Origin: a virus | Length of the DNA: 31,142 bases | Direction: 5' to 3' (one strand) | Virus record (IMG/VR): IMGVR_UViG_3300034101_004784 | Location: 1 to 31,142 of that record | Part shown: positions 2,863-12,687 of the stretch, one piece after another | Numbering within the stretch: position 1 is the first letter of the stretch | Layout of the letters: each line of letters begins with the position of its first letter | Program-made: the position numbers and the translations under genes | The notes under the pieces: model-generated | What the model saw: the letters and a program-made list of their open reading frames with translations, nothing else | Database searches by the model: none | What the model was told of the DNA's origin: nothing

Positions 2863-2877
2863 TTTAATGTAGGTTGA

Positions 2878-2925
2878 GGGGGGCGGCTCAGAGGCTTGTA
2901 TGGCTCTGGGTTGCCCCCCTTTTTT
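2878..2925 (+). terminator. Intrinsic terminator after the major capsid gene
   Basis: Left arm 2878-2893 begins with six G; right arm 2904-2919 ends with six C. They form a 16-pair stem (three G-U pairs) with a 10-nt loop, followed by T6 at 2920-2925. Only 20 bases separate it from the next start codon and no promoter is visible there. Confidence 0.92.
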
Positions 2926-2945
2926 ATTGCAATCGAGAGCACTTA

Positions 2946-3437
2946 ATGAAGAAAGAAGTGTATAAGACTATCGTTCAGCCGAAGGAAGAAACGCTTACAT
3001 ACCTTACTGGATGGAAGCGTCCCGTACACGCCTTTATCCTTTTTGAAACTAAGGAGTGGCACATCTCAAATGATGGCGAAAAGCGCCAGGGAACGGGCCT
3101 CATGACTCTTAACGCTGAGAGCCGCCCAGAGATTTACCACCATGTGGATATGTACCTTCAGAAGGGGTTCCGAATCCTCGACTACGGTAACTTCCCTAAA
3201 TTTAACGACAAAAACCCAGCACGAGCCGCAAAAGCTCACCACTACTCTCAGGGCGCTGGGATTAATCCATGGGATAACCTCGAAAAGTTTGTCAAACAAA
3301 AGATGGCCAGTGAGATAAACTGGGATGAGCGAGCCTCGAACTACGAGAACGAGATCAATGTTCTCAAGAAGAAGCTCGAAGAGGAGCGGAAGAAGCTTGA
3401 GGTCAAGCAGTCCGTTCTTAAAAAGGAGAGCATATAG
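2946..3437 (+). CDS. Hypothetical protein, head-tail region
   Basis: A 163-residue protein when started at the ATG at 2946; a longer frame beginning at 2874 would run through the terminator hairpin and is unlikely. The N-terminal two thirds look globular (aromatic-rich, TGWKRPVHAFILFETKEWHI in outline). The last 45 residues are a Lys/Glu-rich coiled coil. No family is recognised. It lies between the capsid gene and the connector genes, so a minor head or assembly role is likely, but nothing in the sequence proves this. The ribosome site is weak, which fits a low expression level compared with the capsid. Confidence 0.75.
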   Translation: MKKEVYKTIVQPKEETLTYLTGWKRPVHAFILFETKEWHISNDGEKRQGTGLMTLNAESRPEIYHHVDMYLQKGFRILDYGNFPKFNDKNPARAAKAHHYSQGAGINPWDNLEKFVKQKMASEINWDERASNYENEINVLKKKLEEERKKLEVKQSVLKKESI

Positions 3438-5539: not shown

Positions 5540-6598
5540 ATGGCAAGTATTACAGGCGCACAAACTAAAGCTGGCGTGAAGATTGCGTCAACTTGGGGCA
5601 CGGCAGTAGCTTGCGGAGCTGGAAATAGCTTTGCTGGTGAAATCTCGCCGAGCTTCAACGTATCGGAATTGACTTCACGTCAAATTGGCTCGGGAGCATA
5701 TATGCTCTCATCTGCTACTCGTGGTTCGGTTATTCCGACGGTTTCTTTGACTGCAGACCTTGGCTATCGCAATAACTGCGATATCCTCATCGCTCAGTTC
5801 ATGGGAACATCTGGAGCACCAACAGAAGTAACCGTTGGTCAATCTGACTATAAGCACGTTATTACGTTCAACAGCACACTTAACAGCAAGTACGTAACTC
5901 TTGCATTCGAGACATCGTCTGCAACGACTATGGAGTTCCCAACTGCTGCGGTTCAGTCTATCGGAATCGCAACGACTGGAGTCCCAGGATACCTGGATTT
6001 CACAGCAGAGCTTTTGGCTAACACTGTTGAGCTTTCATCGAGCACAAACACCAACGCAACGCTTGCGAACTGCACCTTCACTGAGGGCACTCCTGAGCTT
6101 GTGGCTGTTGACCTCGTTGATAAGTTCCGCACGAACACTCAGAGCGGTGGAGCTGTAAGCTCTGGTGACCAGTACAACATCACTGGCTTTAACCTTGCAC
6201 TTAGCCGTCCACAAGAGATTATCCCAGAGATCAAGGGTAGCGCTGGTAACTCAGCTCCTATCGCTTCTGACCTCTTCGAGGGAACGCTCAGCGTGGATGT
6301 TAAGGAGCTCGCTGACCATGCTTACTACACAATCTGGAGTGCAGAGACTGCTCGCAAGGCTCTTATCCAGATCGAAGGAACTACGATTGGAACTGGAACT
6401 GCGAAGTCCTTCTCAATCTACCTTCCTCGCATGGTTCTCGTAACTGAGCCGCAGTACGCTCTTACGGACCAAGGTACTAATACTCTCTCCATGGAGTTCC
6501 GTCTGCTTAAGGCAGCTACAGCTCCAACTGGAATGACTGGGAGCACCTACCCGTACTTCGAGATCGTGAATACTCTCTCGACTTCGCTCCTTGCGTAG
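5540..6598 (+). CDS. Major tail tube protein
   Basis: A 352-residue, Thr/Ser/Ala-rich beta protein in the expected place between the tail terminator and the tail assembly chaperones. The sequence is dominated by strands such as NSKYVTLAFET and AKSFSIYLPRMVLV, and it ends in a variable, possibly surface-exposed tail. Codon use is biased like that of the capsid gene, and a terminator follows, both signs of an abundant virion protein. It is longer than a minimal tube subunit (about 150-200 residues), so an extra Ig-like or decorating domain is probably present. The lack of a sheath gene beside it indicates a siphovirus tail. Confidence 0.75.
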   Translation: MASITGAQTKAGVKIASTWGTAVACGAGNSFAGEISPSFNVSELTSRQIGSGAYMLSSATRGSVIPTVSLTADLGYRNNCDILIAQFMGTSGAPTEVTVGQSDYKHVITFNSTLNSKYVTLAFETSSATTMEFPTAAVQSIGIATTGVPGYLDFTAELLANTVELSSSTNTNATLANCTFTEGTPELVAVDLVDKFRTNTQSGGAVSSGDQYNITGFNLALSRPQEIIPEIKGSAGNSAPIASDLFEGTLSVDVKELADHAYYTIWSAETARKALIQIEGTTIGTGTAKSFSIYLPRMVLVTEPQYALTDQGTNTLSMEFRLLKAATAPTGMTGSTYPYFEIVNTLSTSLLA

Positions 6599-6618: not shown

Positions 6619-6660
6619 AAAGGGGCGGTATAGTTCTCTTGAGCTATGCCGCCCTTTCTA
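6619..6660 (+). terminator. Intrinsic terminator after the tail tube gene
   Basis: Left arm about 6623-6636 (GGGCGGTATAGTTC) pairs with 6641-6654 (GAGCTATGCCGCCC): 14 pairs, two of them G-U, with a 4-nt loop. The AAA at 6619-6621 can pair with the TTT after the stem, past one bulged G. The T tract (TTTCTATATATT) is imperfect, so termination may be partial. Confidence 0.75.
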
Positions 6661-6704: not shown

Positions 6705-7022
6705 ATGATTATTGACAGTGACCTTACGGTAAAAGTTGGCGATGGCGTTGCCGTTTTTGACGAGCCTACTCTCCGTGACTGGGCGATTATGATTGAGATG
6801 TCTGGCAAGACTCTCGAAGAGCAAGCCGACATCCTTCTCCCTAAGCTCAAAGAGCTTAAGGGCTTTGAGTATAAGGATGGGACTGCCGTTACCGTTGAAG
6901 ACCTCAAGAACAAGAAGTTCTCGGCAAAGTTCTTCTTTCAGCTTGTACAAGCTTGGTCGAAGGCGATCGTTGAAGGTCTCAAGGGAGACTCCGACTCAAA
7001 AAACGACGTAACGGTGAACTAG
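6705..7022 (+). CDS. Tail assembly chaperone, short form (gpG-like)
   Basis: A 105-residue acidic protein directly upstream of the tape measure region. Siphoviruses usually carry two overlapping chaperone frames here that coat the tape measure during tail assembly. The short form ends at a TAG at 7020-7022. Near its end the codons TCA AAA AAC contain the heptamer A AAA AAC (6998-7004), the canonical -1 slippery site, leading into the second frame. The terminal residues KNDVTVN are therefore specific to the short form. Motifs within the protein are weak; the call rests on position, size and the frameshift signal. Confidence 0.8.
   Translation: MIIDSDLTVKVGDGVAVFDEPTLRDWAIMIEMSGKTLEEQADILLPKLKELKGFEYKDGTAVTVEDLKNKKFSAKFFFQLVQAWSKAIVEGLKGDSDSKNDVTVN
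6998..7004 (+). promoter_or_regulatory. -1 programmed ribosomal frameshift site A AAA AAC
   Basis: The heptamer is in the correct phase: zero-frame codons are TCA (6996), AAA (6999) and AAC (7002). A -1 slip continues at 7004 with CGA CGT AAC GGT into a frame open to 7357. The fusion would have 100 + 117 = 217 residues. A AAA AAC is among the strongest known slippery sequences. Confidence 0.85.
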
Positions 7023-7357
7023 TTCGGCTATTGAGGTATAGGCTTTACGAGCCTGGCCTCAACTGCGCTAACTGTCACGTCCTTTTCTCAAAGAACAATA
7101 AGAAGCCAGCGTGTCTCTCGAACCTATGCCCCATCGTGGACATAGCTGGCAACAAGCGTCTCAATCGCCTTGCTGACGCATTTCTGCAGATAGAGATCCT
7201 CTCTATGACGCCAGGTTATGGCTCTTTTCAGGAAAGAGTCCTCCAGGAGAGTGGTCTTATTGACGAAAGCGCAGAAACCATCTTGGAGATGAGGGGTGTT
7301 CTGTCGGAATATAGGGAGTGGAGCGCCAAGAAAAGTAACAGGACGAAAATAAAGTAA
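7004..7357 (+). CDS. Tail assembly chaperone, frameshift extension (gpT-like)
   Basis: This frame is reached by -1 slippage and adds 117 residues to the first 100 of the short chaperone. Independent initiation would need the TTG at 7031 with no ribosome site, which is unlikely. It contains C-x2-C (CANC), then C and C in KKPACLSNLC, followed by a helical C-terminal part (ESGLIDESAETILEMRGVL in outline). A Cys-pair region before a helical end is also seen in other phage T-type chaperone domains. The T part is thought to recruit tail tube subunits to the chaperone-coated tape measure. It ends in a TAATG overlap with the tape measure gene. Confidence 0.78.
   Translation, partial: RRNGELVRLLRYRLYEPGLNCANCHVLFSKNNKKPACLSNLCPIVDIAGNKRLNRLADAFLQIEILSMTPGYGSFQERVLQESGLIDESAETILEMRGVLSEYREWSAKKSNRTKIK
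7031..7062 (+). promoter_or_regulatory. Possible frameshift-stimulating RNA hairpin
   Basis: TTGAGG (7031-7036) pairs with CCTCAA (7057-7062), and inside it AGGCT (7040-7044) pairs with AGCCT (7050-7054) around the loop TTACG. It lies 26 bases after the slippery site, farther than the usual 5-9, so its effect on frameshifting is uncertain. Confidence 0.4.
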
Positions 7358-10300
7358 TGGCAGGGTTCGGGGACTCAAATGACATTAAAATTACCGTAGC
7401 CTTAGATACTAAGGATGCGGTCGATGGTGTAAAGAGACTAACCGACGAAATAAACCTGTTCTTAAAAAGAGTCGAAGCCCCATTCAAAAAGCTCGGAGAT
7501 CTTTCAAAGGAAGTCTCTAAGGTCCAGATTGCCGATATTAAGGCTAAGCGTGACGTAGAGCTTAAAACGCTTAATGACCTTGATAAGGCTAACCAGCGGA
7601 AACATGAGCGCATTCTCGAGCGCATTCGCAACGAGGTGGCCTACGAGAAGATAGCCTCGAATGAGTTTATTAGGCTCGAGAAGATTAGAGTCGACGAATC
7701 TAATAAGCTCAATGCTCAAAGGCAGCAAACAACTCGTAAAGTAATAGATGACACAACAAAGTTTGCTATTGCTCAGACGGCAGCGCAGCTCGAAGCGGAA
7801 AAGTCAGCTAATGTAAAAAAAGCAAAAGACTTTGCCGAGACGGAAAAGACGAAGCGTACCGAGCTTCTCAAAACAATAGCCCTCATCAACCAAGACACGG
7901 CTAAGATTCGTAAAGCTCCAAGAGCTCCAGCCGATGACACCGCTGGCTCTGGCAAGCTCATCGAAGGCCTTAAGAATAGCATCGCTGCACTGTCCTTTCA
8001 GTTTGGCAATGTCAATGTAGGCTTTGGCACCTTCATAAATAACTTTAAAAACCTTGGCGCAGCTGGCGGGGCAGTTGCTGCAGTTGTAGCAGCCATTGGA
8101 GCTATTCAAAAGCTTGACAATGCGATCAATGAACTAGCAGCTCAGGCCAATAAAGTTGAAGGGCTTAGCACTGGATTCGCTACTCTCCAGAGAACGATAG
8201 GGCAAGATCCAACTAAGTCTATTGAAAGGCTTAGAGAAGCAACCCGTGGCCTTGTATCAGACGTCGATCTCTACCAGCGAGCGAACCAGGCAGTTCTTCT
8301 TGGAGTACCGACTGACGTATTCAACGAGGCCGCTGCTGCTGCAGTTAAGCTCGGAAGAGCGATGGGAATCGATGCCGCATTTGGCCTCGAGTCCCTCTCC
8401 CTTGGTCTCGGTCGTCAATCACGTCTTTACCTCGACAACCTTGGTATCATCGTCAGCGCCGAGGAGGCCTATAAGAACTTTGCTTTAACCGTTGGCAAGA
8501 GCGCTAATGATTTAACCGATGCAGAGAAGAAAGCGGCCTTCTTCGCTGAAGCTCTTAAAAAGATTAAGGAGCGAGCAGAAGAGCTCCCAGAGCCGCTGGA
8601 TACTGTTGGTATTGCGCTTCAGAAGTTGCAAGCAGCGCAAGATAATGCGAACAAAAAGTTCAATGAAGGTTTTAACGCCTCTCAGCCGTTAATACAGGCA
8701 TATAAAGATCAAGCGCAGATTGCACAGGCAACAATTCAAATAAATGAGAAGCTTGGATTAGCGGTCGGGGCCTTGGCTGCTCCAGTTAAAAACTCAGCGA
8801 ATGCGATAAACCTTGAGTTCCTTAAGGCTAAGATTGCATTCATTGAATTTGTAGATATCTTCGCCGACCTTAGAACTGCAGAGGAGAAGCTTAAGGGATT
8901 TGAGACAAGGCTTCAGAGCACTGAGGAGAGAATTCGCAAGCTTACTGAGACAAGGGATAAGTTACAGGCTCAGGGGTTTACCCTTGGCAACCCAAGGTTT
9001 GCCGATGTTGATGCAGCGCTTCAAAGAACGCAGGATGAAGCAAAAGCGTTACGAGAAGAAATAGTTAAGCTCCGTGGCGAAGGCGACAAGGGCATTAAGA
9101 TTAATGTCGACAACAGCGAAGTAATTGCTGCTCGCTCTCAAATATCGACTCTGTTTTCAGACCTTAGAGTTGAGGCCGAGCGACAGGCCGGGATATTTAA
9201 AGTCCCTGGAATCGCAGATCCACAAGCGGCCAAAATTTTCTCTGAGCTTAAAACTGCCAAACAAGAATTCGATAAAAGCGCACAAGATACTACCGCTGTC
9301 GAGAAGTATACCGCAGCATTAAATAAACTAGAGCAGGACGTATCTACGGCTGCTGCCAAATCTTCTTTTGGTAATCTAGCCAAAAACGTCACTATTTTTG
9401 CAGATGCGGCTACCAGTGGTAAAATAGGCCAGGCTAAACAAGCATTCGGTGGTATCAAGGGAGCATTGACTCAGTTATCTAAGGGGGCGGGAATAGCCTC
9501 TGTCGATCTTAAGGCTCTTGCAGCTGGCCTTACGGGCGTTACGAAGGAAAGCAAAAAGACTACCAAGCCGCTTAGTGATACAGCGAAAGCGCTCAAACAA
9601 CAACAACAGCAGCTTAAAGAGTTAACGAAGTCTCTCGGTCGTGCATTAGATAGAGCCATACCACCAGGAGTACAGCAGCAACTTGTCGATGTTTTTAATG
9701 CGCCACAGAAAAACGCTGAAGAGCTCCAAGCGAAAATACAGGCAATCGGAGAGGCATTCTTAAAAGCTGGTGGAGATTATCAGGCCTTTGCGAAGGAAGT
9801 AGGCGAGCTTAACAAGCTTAAAAACGAAGCTCCTGACAACTTGATTGAAGGCAGTTCGCAAAATGAAAAGAAACTAAGAGAGGCAAGCGAAAATTTAAAA
9901 AAACTTAAAGCTCAAAGCCTCGACATAAGAAAAATTCTATTCGGCGGTGGGACGGACGCCAGTGGCAATGAAACTGGAGGAGCGTTCTTTGGGTTTGACC
10001 TTGGGAGTAGCCTGACCGCAGAAACCGAATCTCAGTTAGCTGGCCAAGTTCAAGACTTCTTAGCTACCGCAGCTCAAGCGGGAGTCGATGGATTCGCTCG
10101 AGAGGACATCCCGCAAATTGCCTCTGGTTTAGGAGCCTTAATTGGAGGAGGGCTTGCCGCTTATTTCTCTGCGGGTGACCCAACAATAACAGCGGCAGGA
10201 GCACAGGCCGGAGCGTTTATTGGATCTGCATTTGCTCCTATTATTGAAGCTTTTGGTAAGGACTTACCAGGGACTAGAGAGCGTAAAAGCATCGATCAAT

Positions 10301-12687
10301 ATTTCGCTACATTGTTCGATGGCGATAGATTAGCTGTTGTTATTCAAGGTCAGTTAACCGGGGCCATAGATGAGGCTACTGGAGCGGCTATAAGAAGCGC
10401 ACAGCCACAACTCGCACGAATATCGGATCTGGTATTTGAGGGGATGACTCCATTCGCTGGAGATGTAGAGTTTGGCGGAGAGGACTTCTCAAACTATTTC
10501 AATACACTTAGCGCTGAAGTTCAAAATTCATTTAATGGAATTGGAATAGCGCTTGGCTCATTGCTAGGGGTTAGTGAAGAAACAGTAAGGCTTATAGGCA
10601 CTGCCATTGCTAATAATATTGGCGGAGAACTTCAAAACCTTCAGGTTCTTATTCAACAAACAGGCGAAAGCTTCGAGGATCTTTCCAAGGCAATCCTAAA
10701 AGCATTTAGAGACTCTCAAATTACCGCAGAGGAGGCATATAACGCCCTCGTTCAGCTTCAGAATATTTATGCTGAAGGCATCCCTGGAGCCATTGGAGAC
10801 TTCCAGCAAGCGATTGAGAACCTCAATACATCGCTTGAAAACAATCAGCCTGGACAATATGCGCTCGATTCGCTGCGAGATATCGGAGCTGAGGGAGAAG
10901 AGGCTCGAGCATCATTTGAGACCGTTGTATCAAGCCTCGGGCAGACATTCGGCTTCGCTGCAGATCAACAGGCAAGACTTTTTGAAGCGCTGCGCTTAAG
11001 CGGAATTACAAGCCTTCAGCAGCTTTCAAAAGCAACTGATGAGCAGCTTATTACGCTCATCAGAAACATCAATGCTATACGTCAAAATGCAGAAGCACCA
11101 CTCGCAGCTGCGCCAGTAATTACGAGCACAACTCCAAGCGGTAGTGGAAGAAGAAGAGAAAAGAGCGCCGCTGAGATTGCCGCTGATCTTTTAAAGAAGC
11201 AGCGAGAAGAGGCTCGTAAGTTAGTTCAAGATTCTCAAGAGTACTTAAGTATCATTGAGAAGATTAACTCTGGCCAACTTACAAGCGTTCAGGCTGGAAA
11301 GGAGATCGTAAAGCTTAATGCTGAAGTCTTAAGCATAATTAAGCAACGAGATAAGGCGGAAAAAGATCTTAATGCCGAGCTCGACAAGGGGGCTAAGGGC
11401 AATGCGAAAACAATCGCCGATCTTTCTGCATCGCTTTTAAAGCTTGAAGAGCGCCTTAAAAAAGTAAAAGAGAAGGCAGCCGAGAATAAGCGAGAGTATA
11501 AAGACCTCGATATCTCTGCTGTTATGCCTCTCATAAGAAGCCAAAACACACTTGGCCTTGTGGCTCGGCAGATTGGCGTAAGCCTTGAGAAGAACGTCGA
11601 CATCCTGGTCAAAGGATTCCTGCAGGGACGCCTAAGCATCAAGCAGGTAAACGATGAGATCAATAAGACTAAAGAGCTTCTCGGGCCAGGCATTCCAAAT
11701 TCTGTTGGAGCGGTTACAGATGCCTTTCAAAACCTTATCGATGCCGGAACCAAGGGTGGGCAATTTAGTGTCGATGCCTTCACAGATATCTTTGCTGAGT
11801 TTCGGGAGAAGTTTAACAAGGAAGGCTCTGCGTTTCGTGAGACTCAGCGAAAGCAACTTAATGAGAACCTCGACGCTGCAAGACGTGCGGCTCTAGTCGC
11901 TGTTGGCCCAGAGGCTACTGAGGCAGCACGTAAGGGGCTCGAGCTTGCCAAAAAGGCGATTGAGGACTTTAAAAACACTCCAGTGGCTCCAGATCTTTCA
12001 GACCTTAGAGACCAGCTGCGTAACTCCTTCAACCCAGCGGATGTTGAAAAGTTCTTTCAAGCGCTCGATGAGAGTGGGCTCAAGTCGTTCGAAGAGCTCG
12101 AGGGCGCAAGCAGTCAAGCGATCGTTGGTATCCTCGGAAGACTCCAGGAGCTTGGGTTTAACTTCAACAAGACATCCGAAGAGGCCAAGGGGGTTAACAA
12201 GGAACTGCGAGATGCTGAGGAGGCTGCGAACGGAGGTCTCGACCCATTAAAAGAGGCTATTCAGCTTGTCAGGGATTTCAATAATAGCGCAGGGCTACTA
12301 CCTCCAGTATTTAACTCAACGACCGATGCTGTCGGCAAAATGGAAGGACCTCTCGGAAAGATTAAGGACAAGATTTCCGATACCGTGGAGCTGTTGGGTA
12401 AACTCGGGGGCCAGACGTTTGAGAATGATATCGTCTTCAATATCCGAACCACTGGAGAGCAGGGCGGCAAGGCACTTGTAGAGCTCATATTTGGCGACGG
12501 CTCTGAGGCAAGCACGGATACTGGCAATGGCAAAAAGACTCCTCCAAAGAAGGAGACCTCCCCAAAAGAGACGCCATCTTCGAATGACATGGGCAAAAGA
12601 AGTGATTGGATAAGGCAGGGCCCTGGCATATATAAAAATCGAAAGACTGGCAAAACTGTAAGAAGCAGGACTAATCCAGGGGCTTAA
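7357..12687 (+). CDS. Tape measure protein
   Basis: At 1776 residues this is by far the largest gene and sits directly after the chaperone pair. It is mainly helical with long coiled-coil stretches (residues about 45-190, 490-580, 1280-1400). Two hydrophobic Gly/Ala-rich segments could cross a membrane: about residues 233-252 (GGAVAAVVAAIGAI) and 923-965 (GLGALIGGGLAAYF and AGAFIGSAFAPIIEAF). Such segments are typical of tape measures that enter the host membrane during DNA delivery. The C-terminus is Lys/Pro/Thr-rich and basic. At roughly 1.5-1.6 angstrom per residue it predicts a tail near 270 nm. No peptidase or lysozyme motif is evident. Confidence 0.93.
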   Translation: MAGFGDSNDIKITVALDTKDAVDGVKRLTDEINLFLKRVEAPFKKLGDLSKEVSKVQIADIKAKRDVELKTLNDLDKANQRKHERILERIRNEVAYEKIASNEFIRLEKIRVDESNKLNAQRQQTTRKVIDDTTKFAIAQTAAQLEAEKSANVKKAKDFAETEKTKRTELLKTIALINQDTAKIRKAPRAPADDTAGSGKLIEGLKNSIAALSFQFGNVNVGFGTFINNFKNLGAAGGAVAAVVAAIGAIQKLDNAINELAAQANKVEGLSTGFATLQRTIGQDPTKSIERLREATRGLVSDVDLYQRANQAVLLGVPTDVFNEAAAAAVKLGRAMGIDAAFGLESLSLGLGRQSRLYLDNLGIIVSAEEAYKNFALTVGKSANDLTDAEKKAAFFAEALKKIKERAEELPEPLDTVGIALQKLQAAQDNANKKFNEGFNASQPLIQAYKDQAQIAQATIQINEKLGLAVGALAAPVKNSANAINLEFLKAKIAFIEFVDIFADLRTAEEKLKGFETRLQSTEERIRKLTETRDKLQAQGFTLGNPRFADVDAALQRTQDEAKALREEIVKLRGEGDKGIKINVDNSEVIAARSQISTLFSDLRVEAERQAGIFKVPGIADPQAAKIFSELKTAKQEFDKSAQDTTAVEKYTAALNKLEQDVSTAAAKSSFGNLAKNVTIFADAATSGKIGQAKQAFGGIKGALTQLSKGAGIASVDLKALAAGLTGVTKESKKTTKPLSDTAKALKQQQQQLKELTKSLGRALDRAIPPGVQQQLVDVFNAPQKNAEELQAKIQAIGEAFLKAGGDYQAFAKEVGELNKLKNEAPDNLIEGSSQNEKKLREASENLKKLKAQSLDIRKILFGGGTDASGNETGGAFFGFDLGSSLTAETESQLAGQVQDFLATAAQAGVDGFAREDIPQIASGLGALIGGGLAAYFSAGDPTITAAGAQAGAFIGSAFAPIIEAFGKDLPGTRERKSIDQYFATLFDGDRLAVVIQGQLTGAIDEATGAAIRSAQPQLARISDLVFEGMTPFAGDVEFGGEDFSNYFNTLSAEVQNSFNGIGIALGSLLGVSEETVRLIGTAIANNIGGELQNLQVLIQQTGESFEDLSKAILKAFRDSQITAEEAYNALVQLQNIYAEGIPGAIGDFQQAIENLNTSLENNQPGQYALDSLRDIGAEGEEARASFETVVSSLGQTFGFAADQQARLFEALRLSGITSLQQLSKATDEQLITLIRNINAIRQNAEAPLAAAPVITSTTPSGSGRRREKSAAEIAADLLKKQREEARKLVQDSQEYLSIIEKINSGQLTSVQAGKEIVKLNAEVLSIIKQRDKAEKDLNAELDKGAKGNAKTIADLSASLLKLEERLKKVKEKAAENKREYKDLDISAVMPLIRSQNTLGLVARQIGVSLEKNVDILVKGFLQGRLSIKQVNDEINKTKELLGPGIPNSVGAVTDAFQNLIDAGTKGGQFSVDAFTDIFAEFREKFNKEGSAFRETQRKQLNENLDAARRAALVAVGPEATEAARKGLELAKKAIEDFKNTPVAPDLSDLRDQLRNSFNPADVEKFFQALDESGLKSFEELEGASSQAIVGILGRLQELGFNFNKTSEEAKGVNKELRDAEEAANGGLDPLKEAIQLVRDFNNSAGLLPPVFNSTTDAVGKMEGPLGKIKDKISDTVELLGKLGGQTFENDIVFNIRTTGEQGGKALVELIFGDGSEASTDTGNGKKTPPKKETSPKETPSSNDMGKRSDWIRQGPGIYKNRKTGKTVRSRTNPGA

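Follow-up and report, generated by a model that had tools for sequence, protein, structure and literature searches.

The window, i.e., the whole stretch of DNA analysed here, is an entire IMG/VR virus record of 31142 bases. Scaffold and tail-fibre families found elsewhere in the window are consistent with its source, an uncultured virus, being a tailed phage. The region described below contains two overlapping reading frames, a heptamer at their junction, and candidate elements on both sides of it (Table 1). At 7357, the tape measure gene begins with an ATG that overlaps the second frame's stop, which places the chaperone-like pair directly upstream of that gene. Just upstream of the pair, the major-tail-protein position is occupied by a 352-aa ORF (5540-6598) for which PHROG and Pfam searches gave no match.

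Table 1. Features of the overlapping gene pair and its surroundings, in window coordinates.
Feature	Position	Strand	Description
0-frame ORF	6705..7022	+	105 aa; putative short tail-assembly chaperone, lambda gpG-like by position
Shine-Dalgarno-like AAGGGAGA	6981..6988	+	anti-SD duplex about -8.4 kcal/mol
Slippery heptamer A_AAA_AAC	6998..7004	+	also in phase in 9 further loci; wobble-A conservation
-1 frame extension	7004..7357	+	117 aa plus stop; putatively lambda gpT-like
3' stimulatory stem-loop (candidate)	7011..7078	+	covariation, synonymous-recoding test
Tape measure protein	7357..12687	+	1776 aa; PHROG_3779 tail length tape measure, E 9.4e-5

A strong terminator-like hairpin (6620-6657; 17 pairs, -29 kcal/mol, z -5.3) separates the G-like gene from the putative gene for the major tail protein and may set expression of the tail protein far above that of the chaperone. 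Just 3' of the putative capsid gene at 1990-2862 there is another terminator-like element (2875-2926), a very strong hairpin (about -43 kcal/mol, z -5.5) with a T run behind it. The ORF at 2874-3437 has a doubtful TTG start, and its true start probably lies further in. Within the tape measure gene, in-phase A_AAA_AAA runs occur at positions 7815 and 9897.

Near the end of the first frame, AAAAAAC is read as xxA AAA AAC, with the 0-frame codons AAA at 6999 and AAC at 7002. An open -1 frame spans 6974 to 7357, and the heptamer, which is of the X_XXY_YYZ type, lies in 0-frame phase inside the overlap. A tandem -1 slip would join 100 residues of the first frame to 117 residues of the second, resulting in a product of 217 residues. 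A preliminary description of this DNA had placed a heptamer in exact -1 phase at this site and predicted a 217-residue fusion; coordinates and codon phase were borne out, and recomputation returned the same length. In the 18 ORFs checked, comprising 7680 codons, AAAAAAC occurs in phase only once. In-phase heptamers of any X_XXY_YYZ kind number 23 in the same codons, with about 0.05 expected in the 16-codon overlap.

Scans of IMG/VR yielded 11 distinct relatives, giving 12 loci together with the window. Six relatives are close (L005, L008, L010, L011, L012, and L013; 0-frame identity 70-95%), and five are distant (L023, L025, L026, L031, and L033; 0-frame identity 19-27% for the first four). 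No relative was found among cultured phages, searched by DNA and by protein, or in the prokaryote genomes searched. A shift-prone heptamer is present in exact -1 phase at the frame junction of all 12 loci, distant relatives included, and in ten of them, the window counted, this heptamer is A_AAA_AAC. In L026, which has a T-domain identity of 43%, it is replaced by T_TTT_TTG (L026 4965-4971), and in L031 by A_AAA_AAA, the -1 phase being kept in both cases. The 0-frame stop ends 25 nt from the heptamer start throughout the close group and 13-64 nt from it in the distant loci. Since this distance varies among the distant loci, it is the heptamer, rather than the stop, that is kept.

The codons at the slip site were compared in the seven closest loci. 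Codon 98, which precedes AAA, reads TCA, TCA, GCA, CCA, TCA, TCA, and GGA; its amino acid varies (Ser/Ala/Pro/Gly), and its third base is A in 7/7. Codon 99 is AAA in all seven. AAA makes up 22-44% of the Lys codons, about a third, in the loci with A_AAA_AAC (L033 left out). In the upstream control from the same seven loci, the third base varies in each of the 22 four-fold columns, and among 47 codons whose amino acid is invariant, 2 are invariant as codons. Protein coding does not account for this conservation at the slip site, because the second frame is untranslated at those bases unless slippage occurs.

On the 5' side of the heptamer, AGGGAG (6982-6987) ends 10 nt upstream. A comparable Shine-Dalgarno-like element is found in 11 of the 12 loci, L013 being the one without. 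Specifically, GAGG or GGAGG is located 7-8 nt before the heptamer in nine of the ten relatives of the first scan, and L033 contains GGAGG as well. The element also encodes a conserved Glu-Ala, and this protein constraint may explain part of its conservation. In L026, the GAGG stands in a different codon phase, so that the conserved Glu-Ala does not account for it there.

On the 3' side, RNA was folded from 7011 onward, as left by a paused ribosome, revealing a candidate stem-loop. Its base is formed by pairing of 7011-7015 with 7071-7075 (spacer 6), or of 7014-7017 with partners ending at 7078 (spacer 9). The spacers between heptamer and structure are usually 5-9 nt (PMC5009743). The preliminary description had noted a hairpin 26 nt from the heptamer and had considered that either another structure stimulates slippage or the heptamer alone suffices. 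The hairpin it described is present (7031-7062), but it is the tip of a longer stem, which reaches to about 7078 and has its base 6-9 nt after the heptamer. The first of the two options is thus favoured, in the form of this longer stem with normal spacing; the heptamer is not alone, as it is also accompanied by the upstream Shine-Dalgarno-like element. An outermost helix (7005-7009/7077-7081) was not counted as part of the stimulator, since it would abut the heptamer and its conservation is poor beyond the close group.

In a nine-locus alignment, eight pairs of the stem changed on both sides, and the covariation score was reached by 0 of 500 shuffles. Pairing was found in 74.8% of cells, compared with at most 40% in slid versions of the stem. 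A consensus fold over nine loci retains the apical part only, and covariation tested with just the four closest sequences was uninformative. As shuffling takes no account of relatedness, and as some of the stem codes for conserved residues, synonymous codon recoding was added. For the window, this gave z-values of -5.0 (100 nt) and -5.6 (75 nt), and of -4.9 for 80 nt starting 6 nt after the heptamer; L033 is negative in the latter test, too. The z-value of the +1..+100 segment is negative in all 11 loci tested, albeit weakly in L012, L013, and L025. When the coding segments of the window were ranked by folding strength relative to synonymous recodings, the segment at 7013 came first of 947, followed by the segment at 2874, with its strong terminator-like hairpin and T run. 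Support for the stem itself is weak in L012 and L013, and its shape differs in the distant loci.

The second frame might instead be a separate gene that is translated from TTG 7031 by reinitiation after the TAG ending at 7022. This codon lies 8 nt after the 0-frame stop in the window, and no ATG, GTG, or TTG precedes it in the -1 frame. However, it is found in this phage only, with CTG, CTA, GTA, CTC, or TTT in the close relatives, and it has no Shine-Dalgarno-like sequence ahead of it. The first in-frame start past the heptamer lies 60-207 nt downstream of it in the remaining loci, at positions that differ. A separate gene would also leave the conservation of the heptamer and of the wobble A unexplained. 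As TTG 7031 is restricted to this phage among the loci compared, independent initiation there is very unlikely. The earlier statement that the second frame has no usable start was upheld in the sense that no start codon is conserved among the loci.

Transcriptional realignment, in which RNA polymerase slips on the A run and some mRNAs become one base longer or shorter, would draw on the run of six A, which is extended to seven in L023, L025, L031, and L033 and replaced by six T in L026. Six A are short for efficient polymerase slippage. Furthermore, all loci keep the codon phase of a tandem slip, and the structure and the Shine-Dalgarno-like element are placed for a ribosome, which makes this explanation improbable. 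The relatives already refute the idea that a sequencing error or gene decay produced the frame break: the break has an identical position in 11 independent contigs, and both frames are conserved as protein. Nothing was found in favour of this idea, and its probability is negligible.

The two protein parts were analysed using all members of both halves, for which searches of PHROGs and Pfam gave no convincing match. A sequence search against solved structures returned weak, unrelated matches only, such as designed helical barrels. The AlphaFold2 model of the T domain is confident (pLDDT 82) and all-helical, and a fold search with it returned nothing at E <= 0.001. For the 0-frame (G) protein, the AlphaFold model has a pLDDT of 51 and is too poor to interpret. 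The missing similarity to chaperone families is weak evidence, because such families are very divergent. The preliminary description had proposed a tail-chaperone frameshift; the frameshift part is backed by comparative evidence, whereas the chaperone label comes from gene position and from the overlap/frameshift layout, not from a sequence or fold match. It is on this basis that we infer a chaperone role for both products, which as lambda-type chaperones would both be missing from the virion. The second-frame domain (window 6974-7354) contains four Cys (CxxC, C, C) that are invariant in all ten aligned members; the Cys-bearing members include the window, L022, L023, L025, L026, and L031. Tentatively, the -1 extension might be a metal-binding tail-tube chaperone domain, with the four Cys holding Zn, although metal binding by the T domain is a guess from the cysteines.

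As in lambda G/GT, two overlapping frames stand immediately before the tape measure gene, a -1 slip (predicted for the window) falls late in the first of them, and the second is without its own start. It differs in the heptamer, which is G_GGA_AAG in lambda and A_AAA_AAC here, and in the Cys4 motif of the extension; the two protein parts show no detectable sequence similarity to known families. Escherichia coli dnaX has an A-rich heptamer flanked by AGGGAG, 10 nt before it, and by a stem-loop on the 3' side, and each of these elements recurs in the window. The heptamers differ, that of dnaX being A_AAA_AAG, and the -1 shift shortens the dnaX product, whereas the shift in the window would give a longer fusion. 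Low-level -1 frameshifting, with gpG and gpGT as its products, is a widely conserved trait of long-tailed dsDNA phages (PMC5009743; for lambda G/GT, Xu, Hendrix and Duda 2004, as cited there). In this system, gpG binds the tape measure protein, while the T part binds the tail tube (PMC5009743). HCTV-2, a haloarchaeal tailed virus, uses A_AAA_AAC for its g-t frameshift (PMC5009743). Its likeness to the window lies in the heptamer and the gene type, i.e., analogous g-t genes; its host belongs to another domain, if the window phage infects bacteria. For IS1, A_AAA_AAC has been proven to work as a shift site in bacteria, and no stimulator is established there (PMC4066793). The heptamer is shared with the window, but the IS1 product is a transposase and not a tail chaperone, and the window contains both 5' and 3' stimulator candidates.

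All features of a -1 frameshift site that can be tested from sequence are present at the locus, as is the gene-order feature of tail chaperones. It very probably encodes a lambda G/GT-type -1 programmed ribosomal frameshift, making two tail-assembly chaperones from one start. Most ribosomes would terminate at TAG 7020-7022 and release the 105-aa protein. A minority would pause at A AAA AAC, held by AGGGAG behind and by the stem-loop 6-9 nt ahead, and peptidyl-tRNA-Lys and tRNA-Asn would re-pair one base back. Reading in the -1 frame would then run on to 7357, yielding the 217-aa fusion. The shared N-terminal part would bind the tape measure protein, whose gene comes next, and the Cys-rich extension may recruit the tail tube protein. 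Slippage in the host is predicted from these sequence features, and its efficiency is uncertain because A_AAA_AAC is much less shift-prone than A_AAA_AAG in E. coli (PMC5009743).

If the metal-binding proposal were true, tail assembly would depend on a Zn-folded T domain, of which no description was found in the literature searched. The frameshift itself is a known phage device; what is new is the protein family carrying it. In a phage family for which no cultured relative and no matching Pfam or PHROG profile was found, this locus provides a natural example of A_AAA_AAC tail-chaperone frameshifting that is well supported and has candidate stimulators on both the 5' and the 3' side.
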